Assembly (NCBI RefSeq): GCF_001645685.2
Contig: NZ_CP017080.1
Span: 2,781,051 to 2,845,050 of the forward strand
From: Peribacillus muralis
GTDB lineage: Bacteria; Bacillota; Bacilli; Bacillales; DSM-1321
Direction of reading: 5' to 3'
Length of the DNA: 64,000 nucleotides
The position numbers and the translations under genes were made by a program. The notes under the pieces are model-generated. The model was not told the DNA's origin. It searched no databases and was given only the letters and a program-made list of their open reading frames with translations. Each line of letters starts with the position of its first letter. Position 1 is the stretch's first letter. This document shows positions 37,865 through 49,635 of the stretch, one piece after another.

Positions 37865-38596
37865 CTATGACCTCTCCCTCTCCATATCGATTGTCAGCTG
37901 ATAGCGGTCTGCTCGGTAGACAGATTTGGCAACTTCAAACGGCTTGTTTGTCTCGAGCCTGCTTATCCGTTCAATTCGCAATACGGGGGCACCTTCTGCA
38001 ACCTCTAGCATCTCAGCCTCGATTTTTTGAGCGACGGAGGCCTCTATGGATTGCCTTCCAAACTGGATTTTCAGACCAAACGTTTTTTCTGCATGGCTAT
38101 AAATGGAGGAAAAGGCCATTTCTTCCGTCAATCCCCCTGAAAGTACCTTCGAAAGATAGGCGGTTTCTAATGACATGGGCAAGTGGTCGGCCAGTCTTAC
38201 CCGTTTCAACTCAAGAATTGGCGTTCCTGCTTCCACCTCAAGTTTAGCTGCCAGATCAAGTTCAGCTTTGATCTCTGATAAACTGATTACACGTGTACTT
38301 GGCTCAAGCCCCCTAGCTAGCATATCTTCGGAAAAGCTGGTCAAACCTTGCAGGGGCTGCACGATTTTTTGGTGGGTAACGAATGTTCCAATACCTCGCT
38401 GCCTATATAAGTATCCATCATTCACAAGATTAGTTATGGCTTGTCTAACCGTCATCCTGCTTATTTTGTATTTTTCCGTATATTCCCTTTCAGAAGGAAT
38501 CATCTCACCTGGCATTAATTGATGGGTATGAATTGCTTTTTTAATCGCTTCTTCAAGTTGATAGTATATCGGAAGCGGCGAATTCTTGTAGATCAT
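37865..38596 (-). CDS. GntR-family (HutC/UTRA) regulator
   Basis: 243 residues. Winged helix IPSEREYTEKYKISRMTVRQ near 33-52, then UTRA domain (QPLQGLTSFSEDMLARGLEP, LRIERISRLETNKPFE). Close in type to NagR/YvoA, which senses GlcNAc-6-P/GlcN-6-P. It is the last gene of the peptidoglycan-sugar series and the pathway product GlcNAc-6-P is a fitting ligand (inference). It is preceded by the CTAG-centred palindrome at 38616-38625. Confidence 0.9.
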   Translation of the reverse strand: MIYKNSPLPIYYQLEEAIKKAIHTHQLMPGEMIPSEREYTEKYKISRMTVRQAITNLVNDGYLYRQRGIGTFVTHQKIVQPLQGLTSFSEDMLARGLEPSTRVISLSEIKAELDLAAKLEVEAGTPILELKRVRLADHLPMSLETAYLSKVLSGGLTEEMAFSSIYSHAEKTFGLKIQFGRQSIEASVAQKIEAEMLEVAEGAPVLRIERISRLETNKPFEVAKSVYRADRYQLTIDMERERS

Positions 38597-38615
38597 TTAG
38601 GATACATCATCCTTT

Positions 38616-38625
38616 CATCTAGATG
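38616..38625. promoter_or_regulatory. CTAG-centred palindrome, possible GntR/NagR-type operator
   Basis: CATCTAGATG, 20 bases upstream of the gntR start. The known NagR (YvoA) site also centres on CTAG (GGTCTAGACC); here only the inner bases agree. Confidence 0.35.
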
Positions 38626-38698
38626 TAGGACAGCCAAAATACCTGTTTGGAACCTACCGAAATATATACCCTCGTCCTAACAAAAATCCACATTACAT

Positions 38699-39574
38699 TC
38701 ACTTTTCCGGCGTTTCCTTATTTCTTTTCGTGAATTTCAAGACAGATTCCCTTGAACGTTCAATCCCATTTTTATTTTCGTTATAATATTTTGAAACATA
38801 CGCATAGAAAATAATGCTGACCGTTAAAAGTTGTGCGAACAACGAGCTTGTTGCTGCACTTCGGAATTTAGCCTCCGGTGCACGTACATGCTGTAAAGGC
38901 ATATCGACTTTTTTCGTTAACCCATTGTCGCCCAAACGCGATAATCCAATCGTTTTAATGCCATAAGCTTTAGCGATATCAACAAGCTGCAGGACTTCTT
39001 CGGTTTCACCACTATTGGAAATACAGAAAAAAACGGTATTTTTTGATGCTGCCGCAAGCGCTGTCGCCGTAATATGAGGATCTTGATTTGCACTTACGAT
39101 TTTGCCCAATCGTAGCCATTTCTGTGTGATATCCTCCGCGATGAGCCATGAAGCCCCCAGGCCATAAACATAAATGACATCAGCTACCCTCATGGTTTCG
39201 ACTATTTGATCAAGGATGGCTTCATCCAAATAGTGTGCTGTTTCTTGTATGGCCTGAACGGAGTTGGAAACGATTTTATCTTTAATGGAGGCGATCGTTT
39301 CGTCAGGTTCTATGTCATGGAAGCCTTTTTTTTCCGGTTGCGAAATAAGCGATGATAAAGATACCTTTAGTTCTGAAAAACTGTTGACTTTTATGGAACG
39401 GCAAAACCTTGTTACAGCAGAACTGCTGGCATCGGCGTGAGCAGCTAATTCATGAATGGTCATTCTTACGATATCCTTTGGGTGTTCTAAAATATATTGG
39501 GCGATTTTTCTTTCTGATTTTGGCAACTGATTCAGTAGACTTTCAATTCTCAATAAAATATTCTCGACGTGCAT
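38699..39574 (-). CDS. RpiR-family regulator with SIS domain, MurR-like
   Basis: 291 residues. N-terminal RpiR helix-turn-helix (IHELAAHADASSSAVTRFCR near 40-59), then a SIS domain that binds a phosphosugar (VIYVYGLGASWLIAEDITQKW, VFFCISNSGETEEV). In MurR the ligand is MurNAc-6-P, and MurQ, which consumes MurNAc-6-P, is the first gene of this operon; the same ligand is the best guess. GAGGGAG 7 bases before ATG, 23 bases after the kinase gene. Confidence 0.88.
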   Translation of the reverse strand: MHVENILLRIESLLNQLPKSERKIAQYILEHPKDIVRMTIHELAAHADASSSAVTRFCRSIKVNSFSELKVSLSSLISQPEKKGFHDIEPDETIASIKDKIVSNSVQAIQETAHYLDEAILDQIVETMRVADVIYVYGLGASWLIAEDITQKWLRLGKIVSANQDPHITATALAAASKNTVFFCISNSGETEEVLQLVDIAKAYGIKTIGLSRLGDNGLTKKVDMPLQHVRAPEAKFRSAATSSLFAQLLTVSIIFYAYVSKYYNENKNGIERSRESVLKFTKRNKETPEK

Positions 39575-39597
39575 ATCATGGCTCCCTCGATCTTGTA

Positions 39598-40494
39598 TTA
39601 AGTAATATGATTCAACGCTATGTAATAGCAGCCCAGCGTAGATGAAACCTCATCCACGATAAAGGTCACTTCTGGTTTTTCAAGTTTAATATGATTGAAA
39701 AAGGAGCTTCGGACCGTTGGGATATGGGTGAGAATGCTGCCTTTTATTGCAATTGTAACATTCTCTCCAACATTTAACTTCCTGCAAACATCGAGGGCGT
39801 TCTTTGCAAGGTGATAACCTGCCTGAATAAGAATATTTTTTGAGAACTCATCACCTGAATCCGCTTGTTTGACAATGAACGGAACATATGCGGCAATTTC
39901 GGCTTTCGTTGCGGAATAGATGAATTTTTTCAATTCCCCTACACTTCGATAGCCCAGTTTTGTCAGGATCGCCTCCGTTAGTTGGCTATGTTCCAGACCT
40001 TCGTCTTCTTGTTTTGTCATGTTGATAAAAGCCTTCATCGCTATCCAATAGCCGCTTCCTTCGTCTCCAAGGAGATGACCCCAGCCTCCAGCCATTTCTT
40101 CGGCACCATCATGGATGCCGATACTTACAGCTCCGGTTCCTGAAATCGTCAATACCCCATCATTTCCTTTTAATAAGGCAGCATGGGCAATGATTCCATC
40201 ATTAACGATCGTAAAGGGGATATCGAATGCCTTCTTTAATGCACTTTTTAGGACTTGTTGGTTTTTCACCCCACCATATCCCGCTAATCCTAAGCAAATG
40301 TAAAGGCAGATTCCATCATCAATTGAAGCCTTGCATTGTTCAATGGCCTGGATGATGTTCGCAATCGCTTGGTCTTCATTTATGAGCAGGTTGCCAAACC
40401 CGGCATTGCCTTCACTTATTTTATGCCCCGCTAGCCCATAAGCGACTGCCTCTGTTTTAGTGCCGCCACCATCAACACCGATAATATACTTCAT
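39598..40494 (-). CDS. BadF/BadG-type N-acetylglucosamine/N-acetylmuramate kinase
   Basis: 298 residues from ATG 40494 (AGGAGA 6 bases upstream). ATP-binding IIGVDGGGTKTEAVAYG at the N-terminus, TISGTGAVSIGI and GGWGHLLGDEGSGYWI in the middle: the GlcNAc kinase group of the BadF/BadG/BcrA/BcrD ATPase family, which includes MurK (phosphorylates both GlcNAc and MurNAc). In this operon it would phosphorylate the unphosphorylated amino sugar released by MupG or GH4. Exact specificity not readable from sequence. Confidence 0.85.
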   Translation of the reverse strand: MKYIIGVDGGGTKTEAVAYGLAGHKISEGNAGFGNLLINEDQAIANIIQAIEQCKASIDDGICLYICLGLAGYGGVKNQQVLKSALKKAFDIPFTIVNDGIIAHAALLKGNDGVLTISGTGAVSIGIHDGAEEMAGGWGHLLGDEGSGYWIAMKAFINMTKQEDEGLEHSQLTEAILTKLGYRSVGELKKFIYSATKAEIAAYVPFIVKQADSGDEFSKNILIQAGYHLAKNALDVCRKLNVGENVTIAIKGSILTHIPTVRSSFFNHIKLEKPEVTFIVDEVSSTLGCYYIALNHIT

Positions 40495-40563
40495 TATCAT
40501 TCTCCTATTCATTAAAAAAAGGGAGGAATCTTTAATGTTCCTTCCCTTTTCGCCTTTAAACGA

Positions 40564-41649
40564 CTAATTCAAACTGAATTGAAATTTACCCCATGGCTCC
40601 AAATGATCCAAAAGGAAAATTTCCTCCTCAGTGATACGGCCCACTACGTTCGTTTTTCCTGAGTTTTTCATATCCTTCAAGGCAATCTGCAATTCACCTT
40701 TATATTGTCCGTACAGCTCATTTTCGATTAAAAGGTCTCCGCGTTTAATATCCGGCGTGAATGTCGGTTTAAATTCCTCATTCTTATACTTGACGCGAGA
40801 TTGAGTCGAACGAATAAGATAATCGGACACATCTCCACGGTAAAAATGAAATTCTTCCAAGACGATTTTTTTCTCTAAATCCGTTATCGTTTCATGAAGA
40901 TCCACATTGAATGTTAACAATCCACTATTCAGCAAGCTAAGCTGTTTCAATTCCGCTTCAGATGCATAGGCATTTGCAATGATTACATCATCTATTAATC
41001 CAGTTGCAAACAGGTGCTTCGCTTGTGTAGCACTCGCTAATTCCCGGTGCATCTCCAAAGTACATAGCCCCTCTGTTATAGGCCAAGGGCCAAACGTGGC
41101 CGCTTGTGAGCTAATGAAGGCTGCCGTGCGAATGTTATGTTTTTTGAAGGTTTGACAGCATTTCACAAAATGTGAATAGCTCAATCCTGCATAACGATGA
41201 GGATAGAAGTTGTGTGATCCAACCAAGTTACCTTTTTTCGGTTTGTAATTCATGATATTATCCAGATAATTCGTTGCATTGCTCATGTTTATTTCAATTT
41301 TCAAATCATATGGGTTATGTGTCATGATCGATTCTTCATTCCCTGTAAAGCCCATATCCAGCCTAATTCCATATGCACCTAATTCAGAAAAAAATGATAG
41401 GTCGTCGTAAGAAATGCCCAGAGTTCCAAAAACCCGCGGCGCAATATCCACCATCACTTCCATATTCAATTGGTTGGCAAAGCTGATCGTTTCTTTGAAA
41501 TCCTTCATGATTTTCTCTTTATCGCCTTCAACGGATAGCAGGCAAGTAAAAATCTTTTTGAAACCGTACTTATGTGCCAATGCAATGTATTCCATGTCTT
41601 TTGCTACGGTTGAATGTTCTGGGTAGATGGAAATACCTAGTTTGCCCAT
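40564..41649 (-). CDS. mupG: 6-phospho-N-acetylmuramidase MupG-like (DUF871, GH170)
   Basis: 361 residues from ATG 41649 (AGAGGTG 6 bases upstream; the GTG at 41658 overlaps it). The N-terminal barrel starts LGISIYPEHSTVAKDMEYI and holds GIRLDMGFTGNEE and NLVGSHNFYPHRYAGLSY, the C-terminal cyclophilin-like domain ends GRITEEEIFLLDHLEPWGKF. In S. aureus MupG splits MurNAc-6-P-(beta-1,4)-GlcNAc into MurNAc-6-P and GlcNAc in the cytoplasm. Its products are the substrates of MurQ and of the kinase encoded next door. Confidence 0.9.
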   Translation of the reverse strand: MGKLGISIYPEHSTVAKDMEYIALAHKYGFKKIFTCLLSVEGDKEKIMKDFKETISFANQLNMEVMVDIAPRVFGTLGISYDDLSFFSELGAYGIRLDMGFTGNEESIMTHNPYDLKIEINMSNATNYLDNIMNYKPKKGNLVGSHNFYPHRYAGLSYSHFVKCCQTFKKHNIRTAAFISSQAATFGPWPITEGLCTLEMHRELASATQAKHLFATGLIDDVIIANAYASEAELKQLSLLNSGLLTFNVDLHETITDLEKKIVLEEFHFYRGDVSDYLIRSTQSRVKYKNEEFKPTFTPDIKRGDLLIENELYGQYKGELQIALKDMKNSGKTNVVGRITEEEIFLLDHLEPWGKFQFSLN

Positions 41650-41670
41650 TTGTTTCACCTCTATCTTTAT

Positions 41671-42000
41671 TTACTGTTGTGGGGATAATTTTTTTATGAT
41701 CCGAATCATATGTTCAATCAACTTTTGTTCACTCAATGCCGTCATCAGGTGATCTTGCGCATGAATCATCAATAAAGTCTTTTCACTTGGAACTCCGTTC
41801 AATTCAGCTTGAATTAGCTTCGTTTGTGTTTTATGAGCCAAATTCAATTCTTCCTGAACTTGTTTAACCAATTCATCCGCTTTTTCAAAATTAAATTCTT
41901 CCGCTTCCGATAAGGCTTCAAATGCCAGGCTTCTCGCATTTCCGCTATGTGATATGATTTCGAAGATTTCCATTTCGTTATTGTTCAGTTCAGTTGACAT
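41671..42000 (-). CDS. PTS lactose/cellobiose-type IIA
   Basis: 109 residues from ATG 42000 (GGGAGTG 7-8 bases upstream). All-helical IIA of the lactose family: ISHSGNARSLAFEALSEAEE near 17-36 and the phosphorylated histidine H80 in LLMIHAQDHLM. Transfers phosphate from HPr to the IIB encoded at 45300-45608. Separated from IIB/IIC by the GH4 and small membrane protein genes but in the same operon, 21 bases before mupG. Confidence 0.9.
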   Translation of the reverse strand: MSTELNNNEMEIFEIISHSGNARSLAFEALSEAEEFNFEKADELVKQVQEELNLAHKTQTKLIQAELNGVPSEKTLLMIHAQDHLMTALSEQKLIEHMIRIIKKLSPQQ

Positions 42001-42096
42001 AGTTACACACTCCCGTATATGTTCAATATTGTAAGTTGTGTTTTCATTAAGCTGTATTCGCATGCTTTGCTACCATTCACCAAATAATGCGGTGTG

Positions 42097-42160
42097 GTTG
42101 AATTTCCCCTCCAATGCTCGCGTAACCAAAGGGCTCACTCGATCCGCCGCTCCAATCAAC
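42097..42160. repeat. Short, internally deleted copy of the palindromic repeat at 817-942
   Basis: On the minus strand it begins AAAGTTGATTGGAGCGG and ends ATTGGAGGGGAAATTCAAC, matching both ends of the first repeat (GTTGATTGGAACGG ... CTGGAGAGGAAATCAAC) but only 64 bases long. It sits in the 225-base gap between the GH4 and PTS IIA genes, which otherwise holds nothing I can name. Confidence 0.5.
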
Positions 42161-42225
42161 TTTAAAGCGTTTCGTTTTAACTAGGAAAGGGTTGAAGTCC
42201 ACACGCCGTCCGGGAAGGATTGGAT

Positions 42226-43575
42226 TTAGCCTTGGTTGTTCAACAAAGCATTGTCAGTGAAGAATTGTGGTAAGTGCTCCTCATGCGCCGCCAACAGCTT
42301 TTGCAAAACCGCTTCAGCCAGATCATCACTGGGGATCAGCGGGTTTATGGTTAATGCAAGCAAAGCTTTGTCATAGGAGCCTGTAACAGCTGCTTCAGCG
42401 CCCATTCTTTCAAACGATTTAATTTGCTGAATCAAGCCCAGTATTTGGACAGGCAGTTTTCCCATTGTCATTGGGATGGGTCCATTTTTGGTGACGATGC
42501 AGCTTACTTCGACAGCGGATTCAAAGTCGATTTCGGCAAGAGCACCATTGTTTTTCACATTCAGAACTTGAATGTCCTTTTTGTCATTGTAAATGGAAGA
42601 TATGACATTACAGGCAGCATCGCTATAGTATGCTCCGCCACGCTGCTCCAATTGTGGCGGCTTGATGGCAAGGGCATCATCCTTGTATAGCTCAAACAAG
42701 CCTTCTTCCAATGTTTTGACAATTTCAGCCCGGGTTTGCCCTGATTTGAATGCTTCCAACTCTTCTTCTAAAATGGTACTTGTTTTGTAATAATAACGAT
42801 GGTATGGGCAGGGTACAACACCTAATGATTTCAGGAATCTCCTGTTCCAAGGAAGCGGGGCAATATTCTTCATCGTCAATTGAATTTCTGGATTGGCGAG
42901 CATTTCAAGCACTTCATTGGTCACTTCCCGATCATCAACGAATACATGAATTCCGAAAACCATATGGTTCAGTCCCGCAAAGTCTATATGTACTCTTTTC
43001 ATTTCCACACCCAGCATTTTGGAAATGGACAAATGCATATTAAACGGCACATTGCATACTCCAATGACCTTTTTGTGGCTGCTATAGCGGAGAAGTGCTT
43101 CCGTTACCATTCCAGCTGGGTTTGTGAAGTTAATCAACCATGCGTCCGGGCATAGCTCTTGCATTTCCTCAGCGATTTCAAGGAGAACGGGTATCGTCCG
43201 CAGTCCTTTAAACAAACCACCAGCCCCATTCGTTTCCTGACCGATCAGTCCTAGTTCCAATGGAATCCGTTCATCTTTCACTCGTGCATCGAGTAAGCCG
43301 ACCCTCATTTGCGTAGTGACAAAATCTGCATTTTGCAAGGCTTGACGTCGATCCAATGTAAGATGGATTTCCATGGGCACTCCCGCTTTTTCAACCATCC
43401 TCCTAGCCAAACTCCCCACGATCTCAAGCTTTTCTTTTCCTGCTTCAATGTCCACTAACCAAAGTTCTTTAATGGGCAGCTCATCAAAACGTTTAATGAA
43501 ACCTTCTATCAATTCCGGTGTATAACTGGATCCGCCTCCAATGGTGGCTATCTTCAACCCTTTTGACTCATTCAT
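42226..43575 (-). CDS. GH4 6-phospho-beta-glycosidase (NAD+/metal dependent)
   Basis: 449 residues. NAD+ motif IATIGGGSSYTPEL at 9-22; metal site C174 (GVCNVPF) and H204 (GLNHMVFG); TNPAGMVTE near 151-159. GH4 enzymes oxidise C3 of the non-reducing sugar, eliminate the aglycon and re-reduce; relatives LicH/CelF act on 6-phospho-beta-glucosides. Here it is encoded between PTS IIC and IIA of a peptidoglycan-sugar operon, so GlcNAc-6-P-beta-1,4-MurNAc is an attractive substrate, but this is inference. Start 43575: GAGGTG about 9 bases upstream. Confidence 0.88.
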   Translation of the reverse strand: MNESKGLKIATIGGGSSYTPELIEGFIKRFDELPIKELWLVDIEAGKEKLEIVGSLARRMVEKAGVPMEIHLTLDRRQALQNADFVTTQMRVGLLDARVKDERIPLELGLIGQETNGAGGLFKGLRTIPVLLEIAEEMQELCPDAWLINFTNPAGMVTEALLRYSSHKKVIGVCNVPFNMHLSISKMLGVEMKRVHIDFAGLNHMVFGIHVFVDDREVTNEVLEMLANPEIQLTMKNIAPLPWNRRFLKSLGVVPCPYHRYYYKTSTILEEELEAFKSGQTRAEIVKTLEEGLFELYKDDALAIKPPQLEQRGGAYYSDAACNVISSIYNDKKDIQVLNVKNNGALAEIDFESAVEVSCIVTKNGPIPMTMGKLPVQILGLIQQIKSFERMGAEAAVTGSYDKALLALTINPLIPSDDLAEAVLQKLLAAHEEHLPQFFTDNALLNNQG

Positions 43576-43601
43576 TTTCCCATCACCTCTTTCTAAAGCT
43601 T

Positions 43602-43886
43602 TTATGCAAAGATGATTGCATAACAAACAACGACGCTGACTGCCAGTAAAGACAGGAATAATAGTGACGCCTGTTTCTTGTTTTTAAACTTACCTTCAAC
43701 CAAACATATAACCATCGTCAACCCTGCGCTTATCGCGAATGTATTTCCTAAGTAGAGGGATAATTGCTTATCCATACCGAGGGCATTCATCATTGCGTTA
43801 AAGATAAAATTAAAAACAAGAATGAAACTGAAAAAGAAAAAGGCACTTTTGTAACTGAAGAAGTGAATTCTGGATGTTGAATTCAT
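43602..43886 (-). CDS. Small membrane protein in the PTS operon
   Basis: 94 residues from ATG 43886 (GGGAGG 6 bases upstream). Three hydrophobic segments (roughly 12-32, 42-60 and 73-92) separated by a basic loop EGKFKNKKQ. I do not recognise a family. It is placed between IIC and GH4 genes with 73 and 26 base gaps, so it is part of the operon and could be an accessory to the IIC channel. The longer frame starting at 43940 has no ribosome site. Confidence 0.6.
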   Translation of the reverse strand: MNSTSRIHFFSYKSAFFFFSFILVFNFIFNAMMNALGMDKQLSLYLGNTFAISAGLTMVICLVEGKFKNKKQASLLFLSLLAVSVVVCYAIIFA

Positions 43887-43959
43887 GTTTATCCTCCCTT
43901 TCCTTATAATAAGAAAAGGAGTCTGGAGCAATTGATCCAAACTCCTTTTTAGATAGTGC

Positions 43960-45249
43960 TTATAAAGCGATTTTTTTATTTTCCGTTGTTTCTACCGTGT
44001 TTTCCTGCGCCAAAAGCTTTTTATCGTACATTTTAAAGAATGGCAGATATATAATAACCGAGATTGCTAAATTGACCATTACTAAAATGATCGCTCTCCA
44101 ATCACCGCCTGTTGATAGGTAGGCGCCTATTGGAGCAGGCAAGGTCCAAGGAACCATGACATAGGTTGGATTCACTAGCCCAATGGATGTTGCGATATAC
44201 GCAAGTGTTGCACCAATCAGTGGGGTTATGATAAATGGAATGATCAATACTGGGTTCAGTACAATGGGCATTCCAAAAATAACCGGTTCATTGATGTTAA
44301 AAATACTTGGGACGATCGTAGCTTTCCCCATCGCTTTACTGTAAGACGATTTTGCCGTTAAGAGCATAGCGATGACAAGGCCCAATGTTGCACCAGACCC
44401 TCCAATCCAGATGAACCACTGGAAAAATGTTTCAGGAGCTATGTGCGGAATTGCCTTTCCAGCTGCAACCGCTGCGGAGTTATTCGCTAAGTACACTTCC
44501 CAAACCGGCCTGGCAACGGCGCCCACAACTGACACGCCATGAATGCCAAACGACCAGAAGAATGTAATCAAGAACACCGGAACCAATACACCTGGCAAAG
44601 TATCACCTGCACTAATCAATGGTGCAACCGCTTTATCGACAAGGGAATGTAAATCAACAGCAAAGACGACTGTAACCAACGTCATGACAAGCAGGACGAT
44701 TGTAACCGGTATCAATGCTTCGAATGAACGGGCCACTGATGTTGGCACCGAATCCGGCATTTTAATGGTGATGTTTTTCGTCTTGCATAGCCGCAAGGTT
44801 TCCACGGCAAAAATGGATACAAGCATTCCCACAAATAGACCATGGCCTCCGAGATTTGTCATCGGCAGCACAAACCCCACGTCTTCCATCGTTTTTACGC
44901 CGATTGTGAACAAGAAGGCGGCCAGTGATAGTAGCCCTCCTGATAATGGATCAAGTTTATAGCTTTGGGATAAGCTGTAGCCTATACCAAATGTTATATA
45001 AAGCGTCATGATGAACATCGTTAACCGATATGGAATCAATATTTCCGCAATGTGTTTTGCTGACCATTCACCTATAGCCGAGTCTGCTGAAACAGGCGGG
45101 AAAGCAATGATTAAAAACAAACTCCCAAAGATGATGAATGGCAACGCAGAAACCACTCCATCCCGAATTGCCCGTAAATGCTTTTGCTCAGACAGTTTTG
45201 CCATCGGAGTTGAAAGATTATTTTCTAAAAACGCTACAAACTTGTCCAT
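43960..45249 (-). CDS. PTS lactose/cellobiose-type IIC
   Basis: 429 residues, about ten membrane segments; CelB/ChbC type. It starts MDKFVAFLENNLSTPMAKL, has RAIRDGVVSALPFIIFGSLF near 26-45, and the conserved FNINEPVIFGMPIVLNP block near 315-331. It carries a beta-linked disaccharide (cellobiose, chitobiose or similar) across the membrane for phosphorylation by IIB. The neighbours (MurQ, MupG) suggest GlcNAc/MurNAc disaccharides. AAGGGG about 9 bases before the ATG. Confidence 0.92.
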   Translation of the reverse strand: MDKFVAFLENNLSTPMAKLSEQKHLRAIRDGVVSALPFIIFGSLFLIIAFPPVSADSAIGEWSAKHIAEILIPYRLTMFIMTLYITFGIGYSLSQSYKLDPLSGGLLSLAAFLFTIGVKTMEDVGFVLPMTNLGGHGLFVGMLVSIFAVETLRLCKTKNITIKMPDSVPTSVARSFEALIPVTIVLLVMTLVTVVFAVDLHSLVDKAVAPLISAGDTLPGVLVPVFLITFFWSFGIHGVSVVGAVARPVWEVYLANNSAAVAAGKAIPHIAPETFFQWFIWIGGSGATLGLVIAMLLTAKSSYSKAMGKATIVPSIFNINEPVIFGMPIVLNPVLIIPFIITPLIGATLAYIATSIGLVNPTYVMVPWTLPAPIGAYLSTGGDWRAIILVMVNLAISVIIYLPFFKMYDKKLLAQENTVETTENKKIAL

Positions 45250-45299
45250 GGTTGTTTTCCCCTTTTACTTAAAATAGATAAGAAGCCCTCAATCGTTGA

Positions 45300-45608
45300 T
45301 TATTTTACTAGTTCAGTTACGAGTTTCAAGAGCTTAGGGCCGCCAAGAGGGCTGTAAGCTTGAGCGGGTATCGCCTCACATGGCACTCCCGCATCATCTG
45401 CGGAAGCCTTGAAGCCGTCAAAACGATGCTTTACCTGAGGTGCCACCATGGCAACATCCCAGCCGTTTCGAACCTCTGAATCGAATTCCTGCGTGCCCAC
45501 TGCTAACACTTCAATGTTCATACCTTGTTTTTCGCCTTCCTTTTTTAAAGCGCTTACAACGATTGCACTTGACATTCCACCTGAACATACGAATAATACC
45601 TTCATCAT
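45300..45608 (-). CDS. PTS lactose/cellobiose-type IIB
   Basis: 102 residues. Phosphocysteine loop VLFVCSGGMSSAIV with C8; VAMVAPQVKHRFDGFK follows. Receives phosphate from the IIA at 41671-42000 and phosphorylates the sugar during transport by IIC. Fifty bases upstream of the IIC gene and 28 bases after murQ. Confidence 0.92.
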   Translation of the reverse strand: MMKVLFVCSGGMSSAIVVSALKKEGEKQGMNIEVLAVGTQEFDSEVRNGWDVAMVAPQVKHRFDGFKASADDAGVPCEAIPAQAYSPLGGPKLLKLVTELVK

Positions 45609-45636
45609 TTATTCCTCCCTATTTTTTATTAAAAGC

Positions 45637-46521
45637 TTAGATCGTTTTTCTGATGAATCCTCGTGCTTTTTCCAAACGATTTGCAGCTTCTTCATATGAA
45701 ACATTCGTTAAAATCATCACGATGGCAATTTTAGGCTGTGAATGTGCCTTTGCTAAATATTCATCTGCCACGTCATAACTGCAGTCGGTGGCATCCATGA
45801 TAATCCGTTTTGCCCGTTCGACCAGCTTTTCGTTTGTCAACTGTAAATCCACCATTAAATTCCCATAAACTTTCCCGATGCCCACCATTGAAGCTGTGGA
45901 AAGCATGTTGCATACGAGCTTTTGGGCCGTTCCCGCTTTCAATCGTGTTGAACCAGTCAGTACTTCAGGACCGTTAACGACTTCAATGGCAACTTTGGCG
46001 ATTTTCCCTATCTCTGAACCTTTGTTACAGCTTATTGAGATGGTGCCTGCGCCAACTGAATTGGCATATTCAAGACCGGCAATAACATATGGCGTACGCC
46101 CGCTTGCCGCAATGCCGACAACTACATCTTCACTTGTTAATTCGATTTTCTTTAGATCCTCAGGACCTAATTCAAAGCTGTCTTCCGCACCTTCTACCGC
46201 TTTAATGAAAGCTTTTTCTCCTCCTGCTATAAGACCCACCACTTCCCCTGGGTCAGTATTGAAGGTAGGGGGACATTCCACGGCATCCAACAAACCGATG
46301 CGTCCGCTCGTTCCGGCACCCATATAGATCAATCTGCCCTTCTCATTCATCGCAGAAACAATCATATCCACGGCCTTTGAAATTTGCGGAATTTCCTTTT
46401 TAACACATTGTGCAACCTTCAGGTCTTCCTCGTTCATCACTTCTAAAAATTCCATCGTTTTCATTTCATCCAAACTCATGGTCTTTTCGTTTCGACGTTC
46501 TGTCGTTAAATGCTCTAACAT
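45637..46521 (-). CDS. murQ: N-acetylmuramic acid 6-phosphate etherase MurQ
   Basis: 294 residues. Cleaves the lactyl ether of MurNAc-6-P giving GlcNAc-6-P and D-lactate, the key step of MurNAc recycling. SIS-fold signatures: RLIYMGAGTSGRIGLLDAVE near 62-81 and VVVGIAASGRTPYVIAGLEY near 135-154; the C-terminal UBA-like helix bundle is present. First gene of the ten-gene minus-strand operon with a clear promoter. Start 46521 preferred; AAGG lies 9 bases upstream, and the ATG at 46530 touches it. Confidence 0.96.
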   Translation of the reverse strand: MLEHLTTERRNEKTMSLDEMKTMEFLEVMNEEDLKVAQCVKKEIPQISKAVDMIVSAMNEKGRLIYMGAGTSGRIGLLDAVECPPTFNTDPGEVVGLIAGGEKAFIKAVEGAEDSFELGPEDLKKIELTSEDVVVGIAASGRTPYVIAGLEYANSVGAGTISISCNKGSEIGKIAKVAIEVVNGPEVLTGSTRLKAGTAQKLVCNMLSTASMVGIGKVYGNLMVDLQLTNEKLVERAKRIIMDATDCSYDVADEYLAKAHSQPKIAIVMILTNVSYEEAANRLEKARGFIRKTI

Positions 46522-46571
46522 GCCTATCATCCTTTTTATTTCTGTAATGATGCTGTTGAATCTCTAAAAAG

Positions 46572-46600
46572 AATATAACACTACTAAAAATAAATTTCAA
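46572..46600 (-). promoter_or_regulatory. SigmaA promoter of the murQ operon
   Basis: Minus strand -35 TTGAAA (46600-46595), 17-base spacer, -10 TATATT (46577-46572). Immediately upstream (46610-46635) the palindrome AAAATTAATTTT within TTGAAAATTAATTTTAAAA resembles the TGAAA-type half sites of RpiR regulators. Confidence 0.65.
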
Positions 46601-46762
46601 TATAGTATATACATTTTTGAAAATTAATTTTAAAATAAGCGTAATACATCGATATTATGTTATTTCCTGGCTTCCTGCTTACAGTTGTCGCTTCATATGC
46701 TTTCACTTTTTTTAACAGGCATTCCTTGTCATGGCTTAGGTGAACTATGTATATTCATTATT

Positions 46763-46776
46763 TGTTAACGCTTACA
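46763..46776 (+). promoter_or_regulatory. cre site upstream of the GHL10/anmK genes
   Basis: TGTTAACGCTTACA, 13 of 14 positions of the cre consensus, 44 bases before the GHL10 start. Suggests CcpA control of the secreted hydrolase. Confidence 0.7.
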
Positions 46777-46819
46777 AATAATCATATAAAAAATTAGAAG
46801 CTGAAAAGAGGTTGTACGA

Positions 46820-48433
46820 TTGATGAATGAAATTATGACAAAGAGAAAACTAGGTTCATTGGCGCTGACTGCTTTGGTGGGAGGATCACTTCTCCTTCCC
46901 TCAAACCTGATGGCAGGAGCAGAAGCTCACTCCCCCTCTCCCCAAACTGCCTATGTAAAGCAGGAATTGCGTGCCACTTGGATTGCAAGTGTGTTAAATA
47001 TCGACTGGCCTTCCAAGCCCGGCTTGTCCGTTACGGCCCAGAAGGAAGAATTCATGAAGTATTTGGACGAACAAAAGGCAATGGGGATGAACGCTGTCGT
47101 CATGCAGATCAAACCGACGGCCGATGCTTTTTATCCTTCCCGCTATGGGCTTTGGTCACAGTATTTAACAGGTGTTCAAGGAAAGGATCCAGGATACAAT
47201 CCCCTTTCATTCATGATCAAAGAAGCCCACAAACGAAATATGGAATTTCACGCCTGGTTCAATCCTTATCGAATCACCATGCCTTTAGGGAAGACGGCTG
47301 AACTCTCGGATCTTGATAAACTGCCAGAAACCCATCCAGCCAGGCTGCATCCGAATTGGGTCATCCCCTATGGTCAGCAATTATACTTTGATCCAGGCAT
47401 CCCTGAAGTACAGCAGTTCGTGATTGACGGTATCATGGAAGTTGTAAAGAAGTATGATATTGACGCGGTTCACATGGACGATTATTTCTACCCATATAAG
47501 ATCGCCGGCATACCTTTTCCAGATGAAGCTTCCTATCAAAGATATGGGGCAAGTGAGTTTTCGAATGTAGAAGATTGGCGCAGGGATAATGTTAATAATC
47601 TAGTTAAACATATCAATGAACACATCAAAGCGGAAAAATCATATGTGAAGTTTGGTATCAGTCCGTTTGGAGTATGGCGTAACAAAGCAATTGATCCGAC
47701 AGGCTCAGACACCGCTGCCGGGCAAACCAACTATGATGATTTATATGCCGATACAAGAACATGGATCAATCATGGCTACATCGATTACATTGCACCTCAA
47801 TTATACTGGAATATAGGGCTGCCTGTAGCTGACTATGCGAAGCTTCTTGAATGGTGGACTAAAGAAGTCAAAGGTAAGAATGTGCAGCTTTATATTGGAC
47901 AAGCGGATTATAAAATCAATACAGAGTCCAACGAGGTGCAAAACTGGTTTGATCCGGAAGAACTGCCGAACCAGATAAAATTAAATCGATCTTTCCAGGA
48001 GTTCGATGGCAGCATGCATTTCAGTGCGAAAGATTTACGGAAGAACCCACTTGGGATAGCGGACCGGCTGCGTGAAGACATTTATCGCTATCCAGCTTTG
48101 GTTCCATCGATGCCTTGGATAGATAATGAAGCACCTAAAGCTCCCCAGGTTGGAAAGGCAAAACAAAAGGGTGCCCCAATCCAATTCGAAATTCGCGACC
48201 ACAAGCATTCAGATGCTTCGTATTATGCCATATATCGTTTCAATGGGAAGCATAAAGGAAATATTGCGGAACCAAAGAACCTACTGGCTACAGTCCGTAA
48301 AGAAGCGAAAGACCAACTATTTAACGATCGCACCGTCGAAAAAGGGCAAACTTACACATATGTAGTGACGGCCTTGGACCGTACTCATAACGAAAGCAAG
48401 CAAGCCAATCAGATTACCATTAAAGTAAGATAA
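46820..48433 (+). CDS. Secreted GHL10 (DUF187, YngK/DigH-like) glycoside hydrolase
   Basis: 537 residues (TTG 46820 with AAGAGG 9 bases upstream; ATG 46823 also possible). Sec signal peptide: basic MTKRK, hydrophobic core, likely cut after GAEA near residue 36. The barrel carries [17 protein letters not shown], the catalytic-region [12 protein letters not shown] near 215 and [11 protein letters not shown] near 318, and a C-terminal fibronectin-like domain (about 435-537). E. coli DigH of this family cuts stem-peptide-free peptidoglycan glycan strands. With anmK 44 bases downstream and murQ divergent, it is probably a secreted glycan-strand hydrolase feeding the PTS. Confidence 0.85.
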
Positions 48434-48477
48434 CATCCCTCAAATTTATAAAACTAACAAAAGTGGGTGACATGACC

Positions 48478-49635
48478 ATGTACATAGTAGGATTAATGTC
48501 CGGAACATCATTGGATGGTATCGATGCAGCACTTGTTCGCATGAATAATCGTGGCCTGAAAACGGAAACTGAAATGATTGATTTCATTACCCATCCTTTT
48601 CCTAAAGATGTGGAAGAAGAAATCATTCAGTCTTTATCCGTCAATACCTCCAATGTGCAATTGATTTGCAGTTTGAATTTCAAGCTAGGGAAATTATTTT
48701 CAGAGGCAACGAAGGAAGTTTGCCAAAAAGCCGGACTGCCTCTGAAGGATCTGGATTTAATAGGGTGCCATGGGCAAACGATTTATCATCAGCCCTTGCA
48801 GGAACAGAACATGGTTCCCTCAACCCTCCAAATTGGGGAGCCCGCAGTGATTGCTTACGAAACGAACACACCGGTCATATCCAATTTTCGCACAATGGAT
48901 ATGGCCGCTGGCGGTCAAGGGGCTCCGCTCGTACCTTATACCGAATATGTTCTTTACAGAAGTGAATCGAAGGGAAGATTACTTCAAAATATTGGGGGGA
49001 TCGGTAATGTGACAGTCCTTCCCAAGCAGGCCACCCTAGATGACATGTATGCCTTTGATACCGGGCCGGGAAATATGATCATTGATGAAGTATGTCGCCA
49101 GTTGTTTCATAGGAAATATGATGAAGGGGGGGAAATAGCGAAGCAGGGGCACGTTAATGAAGAGCTCTTATCCCATTGCCTCAGCCATCCCTATATAATG
49201 AGCCATCCGCCAAAATCAACAGGCAGGGAATTGTTCGGCAAGCAATATGTTGAAAACCTATTAAAAAAATTCGAAACGGTTCCTGGGCAAGACATCTTAA
49301 CGACAGTAACGATGTTTACCGCCAAGTCGATCGTTGAGAACTATCGGGCCTTCATTTTGCCGAAAACGGAAATAGAAGAAGTGATCATCGGTGGCGGCGG
49401 CAGTTACAATAACACATTAATCGAAATGATCCAGTCATTGCTAGGAGATTCCGTTACAGTCCTCACGCAGGAAGAATTGGGATTCTCATCTGAAGCTAAA
49501 GAAGCTATCGCATTTGCCTTGCTTGCAAATGAGACGTTTCATGGCAAACCAAGTAATGTCCCCAGCGCCACAGGAGCAAAAAAAGCTGTCATCCTTGGAA
49601 ACATCACCTTCCCTCCTTTAAAAGGTAGTAGATGA
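48478..49635 (+). CDS. anmK: Anhydro-N-acetylmuramic acid kinase
   Basis: 385 residues from ATG 48478 (GGGTGA 7 bases upstream; GTG 48463 and ATG 48472 also in frame). Opens [19 protein letters not shown], the family signature, with [20 protein letters not shown] and [10 protein letters not shown] further on. It hydrolyses and phosphorylates 1,6-anhydroMurNAc to MurNAc-6-P, the substrate of MurQ. AnhydroMurNAc is made by lytic transglycosylases, including the spore cortex enzyme SleB. Follows the GHL10 gene, same strand. Confidence 0.95.

Follow-up and report, generated by a model that had tools for sequence, protein, structure and literature searches.

Background

In Bacillus subtilis, peptidoglycan sugars are recovered by the NamZ-NagZ-AmiE-MurP-MurQ route, in which breakdown to single sugar units takes place outside the cell and N-acetylmuramic acid (MurNAc) enters through MurP, without the use of an anhydroMurNAc kinase (AnmK). 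The mur genes of this organism are laid out as murQ-murR-murP-amiE (PMC5061867). In the MurP/MupG route, MurP yields MurNAc-6P-GlcNAc (where GlcNAc is N-acetylglucosamine) and the MurNAc released by MupG is already phosphorylated (PMC6262408), so that the route needs neither a MurNAc kinase nor AnmK. For chitobiose, the Escherichia coli phosphotransferase system (PTS) places the phosphate on C6 of the GlcNAc at the non-reducing end, an E. coli GH4 enzyme cleaves glucosamine-6P glycosides after deacetylation, and in Lacticaseibacillus paracasei a GH170 enzyme with a cellobiose-type PTS is required for the use of diacetylchitobiose (PMC12791066). The subject of this work is a gene island at positions 37865-49635 of a 64,000 nucleotide stretch of Peribacillus muralis DNA (assembly GCF_001645685.2, contig NZ_CP017080.1, positions 2,781,051 to 2,845,050), referred to below as the window. 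We propose, at a probability of about 0.62, that this island is a second peptidoglycan-sugar system complementing MurP, in which a lactose-type PTS would import GlcNAc-MurNAc and GlcNAc-anhydroMurNAc and phosphorylate the GlcNAc, with a GH170 glycosidase, a BadF-family kinase, AnmK and MurQ acting downstream.

Ten genes of the island form a minus-strand series in the order murQ-IIB-IIC-small membrane protein-GH4-IIA-GH170-BadF kinase-rpiR-gntR, running from 46530 (murQ) to 37865 (gntR), and the genes for a secreted GHL10 protein and AnmK lie divergently on the plus strand. All twelve are present in the list of open reading frames, and the families that the initial annotation had assigned to them were confirmed.

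Conserved gene context of the island-type PTS

We compared 128 loci, of which 55 carry a GH170 gene with an island-type IIC (at least 43% identical to the window IIC), 33 carry a GH170 gene with another lactose-type IIC, and 40 are murP loci spread over many genus codes (L154-L193); the murP loci were picked from among the matches listed, and this scope holds for every count at murP loci given below. Genes in the loci were assigned by their BLAST similarity to those in the clusters of the window's own genome (E 1e-5, half length), and distant members may escape. A search of 299 genomes drawn from the class found AnmK above its cut-off in 61, MurP (E 1e-60) in 107, a figure that includes weaker paralogues, and GH170 in 90. 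The other loci surveyed were 71 GH170 relatives chosen by likeness to the window GH170 (L009-L079), all 60 anmK places above the cut-off outside the window genome (L094-L153), and the surroundings of part of the further GH170 matches (L194-L221). L125, L201 and L206 repeat L015, L025 and L051 and were removed from the 128-locus counts.

Near the 55 island-type loci we found anmK in 43 cases, murQ in 35, a BadF kinase in 44, GH4 in 26 and GHL10 in 17, whereas the 33 loci with another lactose-type IIC had no anmK, murQ or GHL10, with a BadF kinase in 10 and GH4 in 13. At the 40 murP loci, murQ was present in 36 and a GH170 gene of the MurP kind in 25, with anmK, a BadF-like kinase and GHL10 in none. 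Counted by genus names and codes, which may overlap, anmK accompanies the island-type IIC in 21 of 29 and murQ in 16 of 29, as against no anmK in the 16 with another lactose-type IIC or in the 36 with murP. The gene set recurs, reordered and as locus-specific subsets, in Listeria, Rossellomorea, Heyndrickxia, Paraliobacillus, Caloramator, Fonticella and Clostridium, and further in Carnobacterium, Enterococcus, Vagococcus, Streptococcus, Ruoffia and Holdemania. Because the island-type IIC is accompanied in so many genera by murQ, anmK and a BadF kinase, and sometimes by GHL10, peptidoglycan sugars are likely the cargo of this PTS. The initial annotation had proposed a lactose-family PTS for peptidoglycan disaccharides and had suggested a search of genomes for its co-occurrence with murQ, mupG and anmK; the counts for murQ and anmK (35 and 43 of 55) bear the idea out in part, the two sugars of the cargo probably standing in the opposite order to those handled by MurP and MupG.

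The view from anmK is broader. The window AnmK (48463..49635, plus strand; NF007142 641.1, cut-off 435) and the 60 others make 61 anmK loci, 10 of which have a lactose-type IIC and GH170 and one a GH170 on a 5-kb contig. Another 40 have some of murQ, BadF, nagZ and namZ with neither a PTS-GH170 pair nor murP, and 10 have none of the genes asked for. No murP was found in any of the 61 within the stretches fetched, which reach up to ~8.5 kb on each side (7 of the 60 were shortened, mostly by contig ends). In the three loci lacking a PTS that were examined gene by gene (L101, L105, L145), ABC (ATP-binding cassette) transporter genes lie nearby, as judged by eye. In a tree of AnmK sequences, a branch separates the 37 rows linked to GH170 from the 50 others, with a Shimodaira-Hasegawa-like approximate likelihood ratio test (SH-aLRT) support of 99.

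For Enterococcus cecorum, the excerpted PMC13391275 gives near-equal frequencies for a 431-residue lichenan-type IIC and AnmK (84 vs 85 of 113, and 14 vs 14 of 33) and handles the two separately; to us these frequencies look like one island, as in the Enterococcus loci here.

Two mur systems in one genome

The host genome (two contigs, 5.0 Mb in all) belongs to the Peribacillus simplex group, and the island GH170 is 92% identical to that of P. simplex VanAntwerpen02 and 93% to that of Peribacillus sp. SI8-4, both of which keep the whole cluster. The genome has two murQ genes above the cut-off, three GH170 genes and one NamZ, along with a single AnmK match and a single GHL10 match, both of them in the island. 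The island MurQ, a MurNAc-6-phosphate etherase with a SIS domain (45637..46530, minus strand), scores 406.7 bits in TIGR00274 against a cut-off of 302, and the second murQ copy is at C1:2210289. A separate operon (L091) has the order murQ-murR-murP-GH170-nagZ-namZ. The initial annotation had described the island as using its PTS instead of MurP, which is true of the island and not of the genome, where the separate murP it suggested looking for was found. Since the genome also carries this MurP operon, the island is an additional mur system in parallel with it rather than a MurP substitute; replacement of a missing MurP was rejected on the same ground, as murP has its own murQ and GH170 there. 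The third GH170 gene belongs to a cluster with the order lactose-type IIC-small membrane protein-GH170-IIB-IIA (L092:5148-8518) with no adjoining mur gene, which is possibly for chitobiose. The DUF3284 protein ChbD of the L. paracasei chitobiose cluster has no PF11687 match in this genome.

A lactose-type mur cluster also stands beside a murP cluster in a Streptococcus sp. (L066:6607-18837), with two murQ genes and one GH170 of each kind; its MurP-side GH170 is a long branch in the tree.

Trees of IIC and GH170

The island has separate IIA (41671..42063, PF02255 111 bits), IIB (45300..45608, PF02302 45.5 bits) and IIC (43960..45249, PF02378) genes, all on the minus strand and all of the lactose/cellobiose PTS family. 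The IIC, at 416.7, lies above the cut-off of the lactose/cellobiose subfamily model TIGR00410 (236) and below that of the cellobiose IIC equivalog TIGR00359 (434.45). In a tree of 75 IIC rows, all 45 rows with murQ or anmK nearby fall within one set of 52 (SH-aLRT 97), and the label changes only 7 times against a mean of 23.7 when shuffled; the other 7 rows of the set, and all 23 rows outside it, have neither gene near. Some residues are particular to the set; Gln277, for instance, occurs in 52 of 52, where 87% of the other IICs have Asp. L015 and L125 were both kept in this tree and in the first GH170 tree; other near-duplicates and fragments from the own genome were omitted from the trees.

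The island GH170 (40564..41658, minus strand) is a putative 6-phospho-glycosidase with MupG_N and MupG_C domains (PF19200 328 bits, PF05913 142 bits). In a first GH170 tree, 27 MurP-linked rows form one side of a branch with a support of 100. A wider tree of 121 rows has a lactose side of 90 rows (support 98) with no MurP-linked row among them, consisting of 38 mur-linked lactose-type, 37 other lactose-linked, 12 unassigned and 3 rows that we label chb-like, a DUF3284 gene having been found for L194 and L195 and not for L196; the remaining 31 rows are the 27 MurP-linked ones, one lactose-linked (L217) and three unassigned. The window GH170 lies on the lactose-PTS-linked side, apart from the MurP-linked GH170s, in trees from which S. 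aureus MupG and L. paracasei ChbE are absent. The name MupG given to it in the initial annotation is doubtful for this reason, and a simple MupG orthologue was rejected, as the protein lies apart from the MurP-linked GH170s in both trees.

This placement bears on the order of the two sugars. The island could be read as an importer of MurNAc-GlcNAc, in which GH170 is a MupG cleaving MurNAc-6P-GlcNAc for MurQ, and AnmK and the kinase handle side products. Such a reading agrees with murQ being first in the operon, with the Pfam families that the island GH170 shares with MupG, and with a BadF kinase that could phosphorylate the released GlcNAc. We consider it decidedly unlikely, since the 27 MurP-linked GH170s lie apart from the island GH170, murP and a GH170 of its own are present elsewhere in the genome, and a GlcNAc at the reducing end cannot feed AnmK, whose gene is at none of the 40 murP loci. 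For our own proposal of GlcNAc-(anhydro)MurNAc, the GH170s of L194 and L195, which have a DUF3284 gene of the ChbD type near, take a basal position on the lactose side. The island combines a lactose-type PTS with a GH170 from the same side of the tree as the DUF3284-linked GH170s (ChbE being absent from the tree), and these together with the chitobiose GH170 of L. paracasei make it plausible that the cleaved sugar is GlcNAc-6-P, as it is for chitobiose.

Points against the proposal and the case for chitobiose

Several findings weigh against our proposal and should be read with the counts and trees above. All trees were built by a quick method and contain some long branches, and flagged rows are uncertain; the GH170 trees lack the two characterized proteins, S. 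aureus MupG and L. paracasei ChbE, and contain an exception to the split, a MurP-side GH170 that has a lactose-type PTS and a gene resembling murR beside it (L217, genome G174). Among residues that might separate the GH170s of mur-linked from those of other lactose-type clusters none was found, so that GH170 specificity is not readable from sequence. Eight of the 55 island-type loci were found via anmK, and without these anmK is at 35 of 47. The BadF counts express likeness to the window kinase, so other kinase types near murP fall outside them. Among the island genes no lytic transglycosylase was noticed, and no search for one was made elsewhere in the genome. Finally, neither murQ nor anmK is near in 10 of the 55 island-type loci, and no mur gene is near 7 of the 52 IICs of the tree set, so that the IIC subfamily may not serve mur sugars only.

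The same ten loci would fit a PTS that imports chitobiose (or cello-oligosaccharides), with the mur genes as mere neighbors and peptidoglycan disaccharides as minor substrates or none. The only solved structure matched by the IIC, 3qnq, is by name a cellobiose-specific IIC and is, we assume, the Bacillus cereus chitobiose transporter. By a hand count against its presumed sugar-binding residues, the positions of His250, Glu334 and Trp382 are kept in the window IIC and Arg91 is replaced by Ser, which does not decide the substrate. Chitobiose is moreover served by a GH170 in L. paracasei and by a GH4 in E. coli (PMC12791066). A chitobiose system has no need of MurQ or AnmK, yet these accompany the island-type IIC in 16 and 21 of the 29 genus names or codes against none of the 33 other lactose-type GH170 loci, and the L092 cluster, without mur genes, could serve chitobiose in this genome. 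On balance we regard the chitobiose reading as unlikely.

Proposed pathway

In 1,6-anhydroMurNAc the O6 lies within the anhydro bridge, so that there is no free O6, and this sugar occurs at reducing ends only. It follows that a PTS can deliver anhydroMurNAc only behind another sugar. MurNAc-GlcNAc, whose reducing end is GlcNAc, does not explain AnmK, and GlcNAc-(anhydro)MurNAc does; because AnmK and a MurK-family kinase are usual at island-type loci, GlcNAc-anhydroMurNAc and GlcNAc-MurNAc are the simplest cargo. The BadF/BcrAD-family kinase (39598..40512, minus strand; PF01869) has as its nearest solved structure a MurNAc/GlcNAc kinase (E 1.6e-29) and scores 98.6 in the NagK model NF046058, below the cut-off of 370, and it is likely a MurK-like MurNAc/GlcNAc kinase. 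The kinase alone does not settle the sugar order, because released GlcNAc also needs one and a BadF kinase is present at 10 of the 33 loci with another lactose-type IIC.

In the pathway that we propose from gene content and sequence likeness, GHL10 and other muramidases or lytic transglycosylases would release disaccharides outside the cell with GlcNAc at the non-reducing and MurNAc or 1,6-anhydroMurNAc at the reducing end, and the lactose-type IIA-IIB-IIC would import GlcNAc-MurNAc and GlcNAc-anhydroMurNAc while phosphorylating O6 of the GlcNAc. The GH170 would then hydrolyse the 6-phospho-glycoside to GlcNAc-6-P and free MurNAc or anhydroMurNAc, of which the former would be phosphorylated by the BadF kinase and the latter opened and phosphorylated by AnmK, and MurQ would convert the MurNAc-6-P to GlcNAc-6-P and D-lactate. 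GH4 perhaps acts on de-N-acetylated glucosamine (GlcN) glycosides to give GlcN-6-P.

The GH4 gene (42226..43626, minus strand, with an alternative ATG start at 43581; PF02056, PF11975) encodes a putative 6-phospho-beta-glycosidase that matches, at ~700 bits, the solved structures 5c3m and 1s6y, both putative 6-phospho-beta-glucosidases. GH4 catalysis proceeds through oxidation at C3 of the cleaved sugar, and as MurNAc carries its lactyl group at C3, the presence of GH4 points to a GlcNAc- or GlcN-ended cargo; by analogy it may serve de-N-acetylated peptidoglycan. The two phosphoglycosidase families in one operon, with GH4 at 26 of the 55 loci, and the action of the E. coli GH4 on glucosamine-6P glycosides after deacetylation (PMC12791066) could also be taken to suggest a broad salvage system, in which one PTS serves chitobiose, GlcNAc-MurNAc, GlcNAc-anhydroMurNAc and GlcN-MurNAc, and GH170 and GH4 split the acetylated and de-acetylated forms between them. 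The local argument for such breadth is gene context, and we think it very improbable.

Taking the GlcNAc-(anhydro)MurNAc proposal further, we offer tentatively, at somewhat less than even odds, that this is a PTS of Bacillota devoted to GlcNAc-(anhydro)MurNAc and a group-translocating counterpart of AmpG, that its GH170 branch is a 6-phospho-beta-N-acetylglucosaminidase, that together with MurP it covers both disaccharide orders, and that the GHL10s feeding it cut the MurNAc-GlcNAc bond. If true, Gram-positive bacteria would have two PTS routes dividing the peptidoglycan disaccharides by sugar order, and the lactose-type route would give AnmK in such bacteria a defined source. The GH170 family would split into two specificities, a set of 'cellobiose/lichenan PTS' annotations would gain a testable new substrate, and the bond cut by GHL10/DigH would become testable through product analysis.

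Extracellular enzymes

The GHL10 glycosidase of the window (46820..48433, plus strand) has a domain of the GHL10/DigH type (PF02638 341 bits), DigH being, as we take it, a GHL10 protein, and an export signal peptide as judged by eye. GHL10 is near 17 of the 55 island-type loci, most of them from the Peribacillus group, which represent 7 of the 29 genus names or codes; a chance neighbor was rejected, as it is at none of the 33 other lactose-type and none of the 40 murP loci. The Listeria GHL10 (L017) has MucBP and LPXTG anchor domains and the Enterococcus GHL10s (L040, L045) have MucBP. In Fonticella tunisiensis (L024:12310-16515), a single 1402-residue protein joins GHL10 to SpoIID and ends in a C-terminal LPKTG-type motif (the anchor model scoring below its cut-off), and adjoins the lactose-type PTS, GH170, anmK and murQ; in Caloramator (L020) a SpoIID protein precedes IIB. 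SpoIID is a lytic transglycosylase domain, once described as a muramidase on stripped glycan (PMC6635528), and the activity of DigH is given as either glucosaminidase or muramidase (PMC12288456). It is possible from this context that GHL10 feeds the island PTS, and the setting predicts a GHL10 product with MurNAc at the reducing end.

SpoIID likeness was seen in 9 of the 60 anmK loci (weakly in L110; Pfam was applied to three of the nine) and in none of the 40 murP loci. The nine, L099, L101, L103, L110, L120, L124, L128, L133 and L137, have the SpoIID-like gene near anmK with no PTS found there, and the L101 locus also has genes resembling those of ABC sugar importers, along with nagZ, namZ, murQ and a BadF kinase gene.

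Regulators and the small membrane protein

The RpiR/MurR-type regulator with a SIS domain (38699..39574, minus strand; Pfam HTH_6 and SIS) has counterparts in 39 of the 55 loci with GH170 and an island-type IIC. The GntR/UTRA regulator (37865..38596, minus strand; UTRA 136.6 bits, GntR 66 bits) is at the same place in the Peribacillus-group loci except L016. A palindrome resembling a catabolite-responsive element (cre), TTTGTAAGCGTTAACAAA, sits within a longer palindrome between murQ and GHL10 (about 46761..46778) and is kept in 8 of 9 aligned Peribacillus-group loci including the window; the ninth, L016, has neither the site nor GHL10. RpiR, GntR and the cre-like site would control expression of the island.

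The small membrane protein of 112 residues encoded after IIC (43602..43940, minus strand) has no Pfam match. A counterpart (70-160 residues, at least 2 hydrophobic stretches) is encoded immediately after 37 of 58 island-type IIC genes, 3 duplicate records counted; the sequences differ widely among loci, and four counterparts gave only weak or no Pfam matches.

Comparison with known systems

The initial annotation knew of no description of this set as one system. Searches of an open-access library, judged by titles, the openings of abstracts and excerpts, likewise gave no paper that treats MurQ or AnmK and a lactose-type PTS as a single system, nor did the excerpts of PMC10154347, PMC10716427 and PMC13209645 contain anything relevant, although subscription papers, supplements and regulon databases lay outside the search and an earlier mention is possible.

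The S. aureus MurP-MupG-MurQ-MurR system (PMC6262408) shares with the island the import of a disaccharide by a PTS, a GH170-family hydrolase, MurQ and a regulator of the RpiR family. It differs in that MurP is a glucose-type IIBC where the island has lactose-type IIA, IIB and IIC, in that the MurP-linked GH170s are on the opposite side of the family tree, and in that the island has AnmK, a BadF kinase and GHL10, none of which is at the 40 murP loci. The L. paracasei chb cluster for N,N'-diacetylchitobiose (PMC12791066) resembles the island in its cellobiose/lactose-type PTS and GH170 hydrolase; as published in the parts excerpted it has no murQ, anmK or kinase, and it has the DUF3284 protein ChbD, which is unmatched in this genome. 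The B. subtilis route has MurQ and peptidoglycan sugars in common with the island, and an operon similar to the B. subtilis one (L091) is found elsewhere in the window genome. Gram-negative AmpG-NagZ-AnmK-MurQ recycling (PMC5061867) has the GlcNAc-anhydroMurNAc cargo, AnmK and MurQ that we propose for the island, but there AmpG is the permease and NagZ acts on a sugar that carries no phosphate, where the island would use a PTS and a phosphoglycosidase. Recovery of peptidoglycan disaccharides by a PTS was already known, and what sets the island apart is its different transporter family and, probably, the opposite disaccharide.

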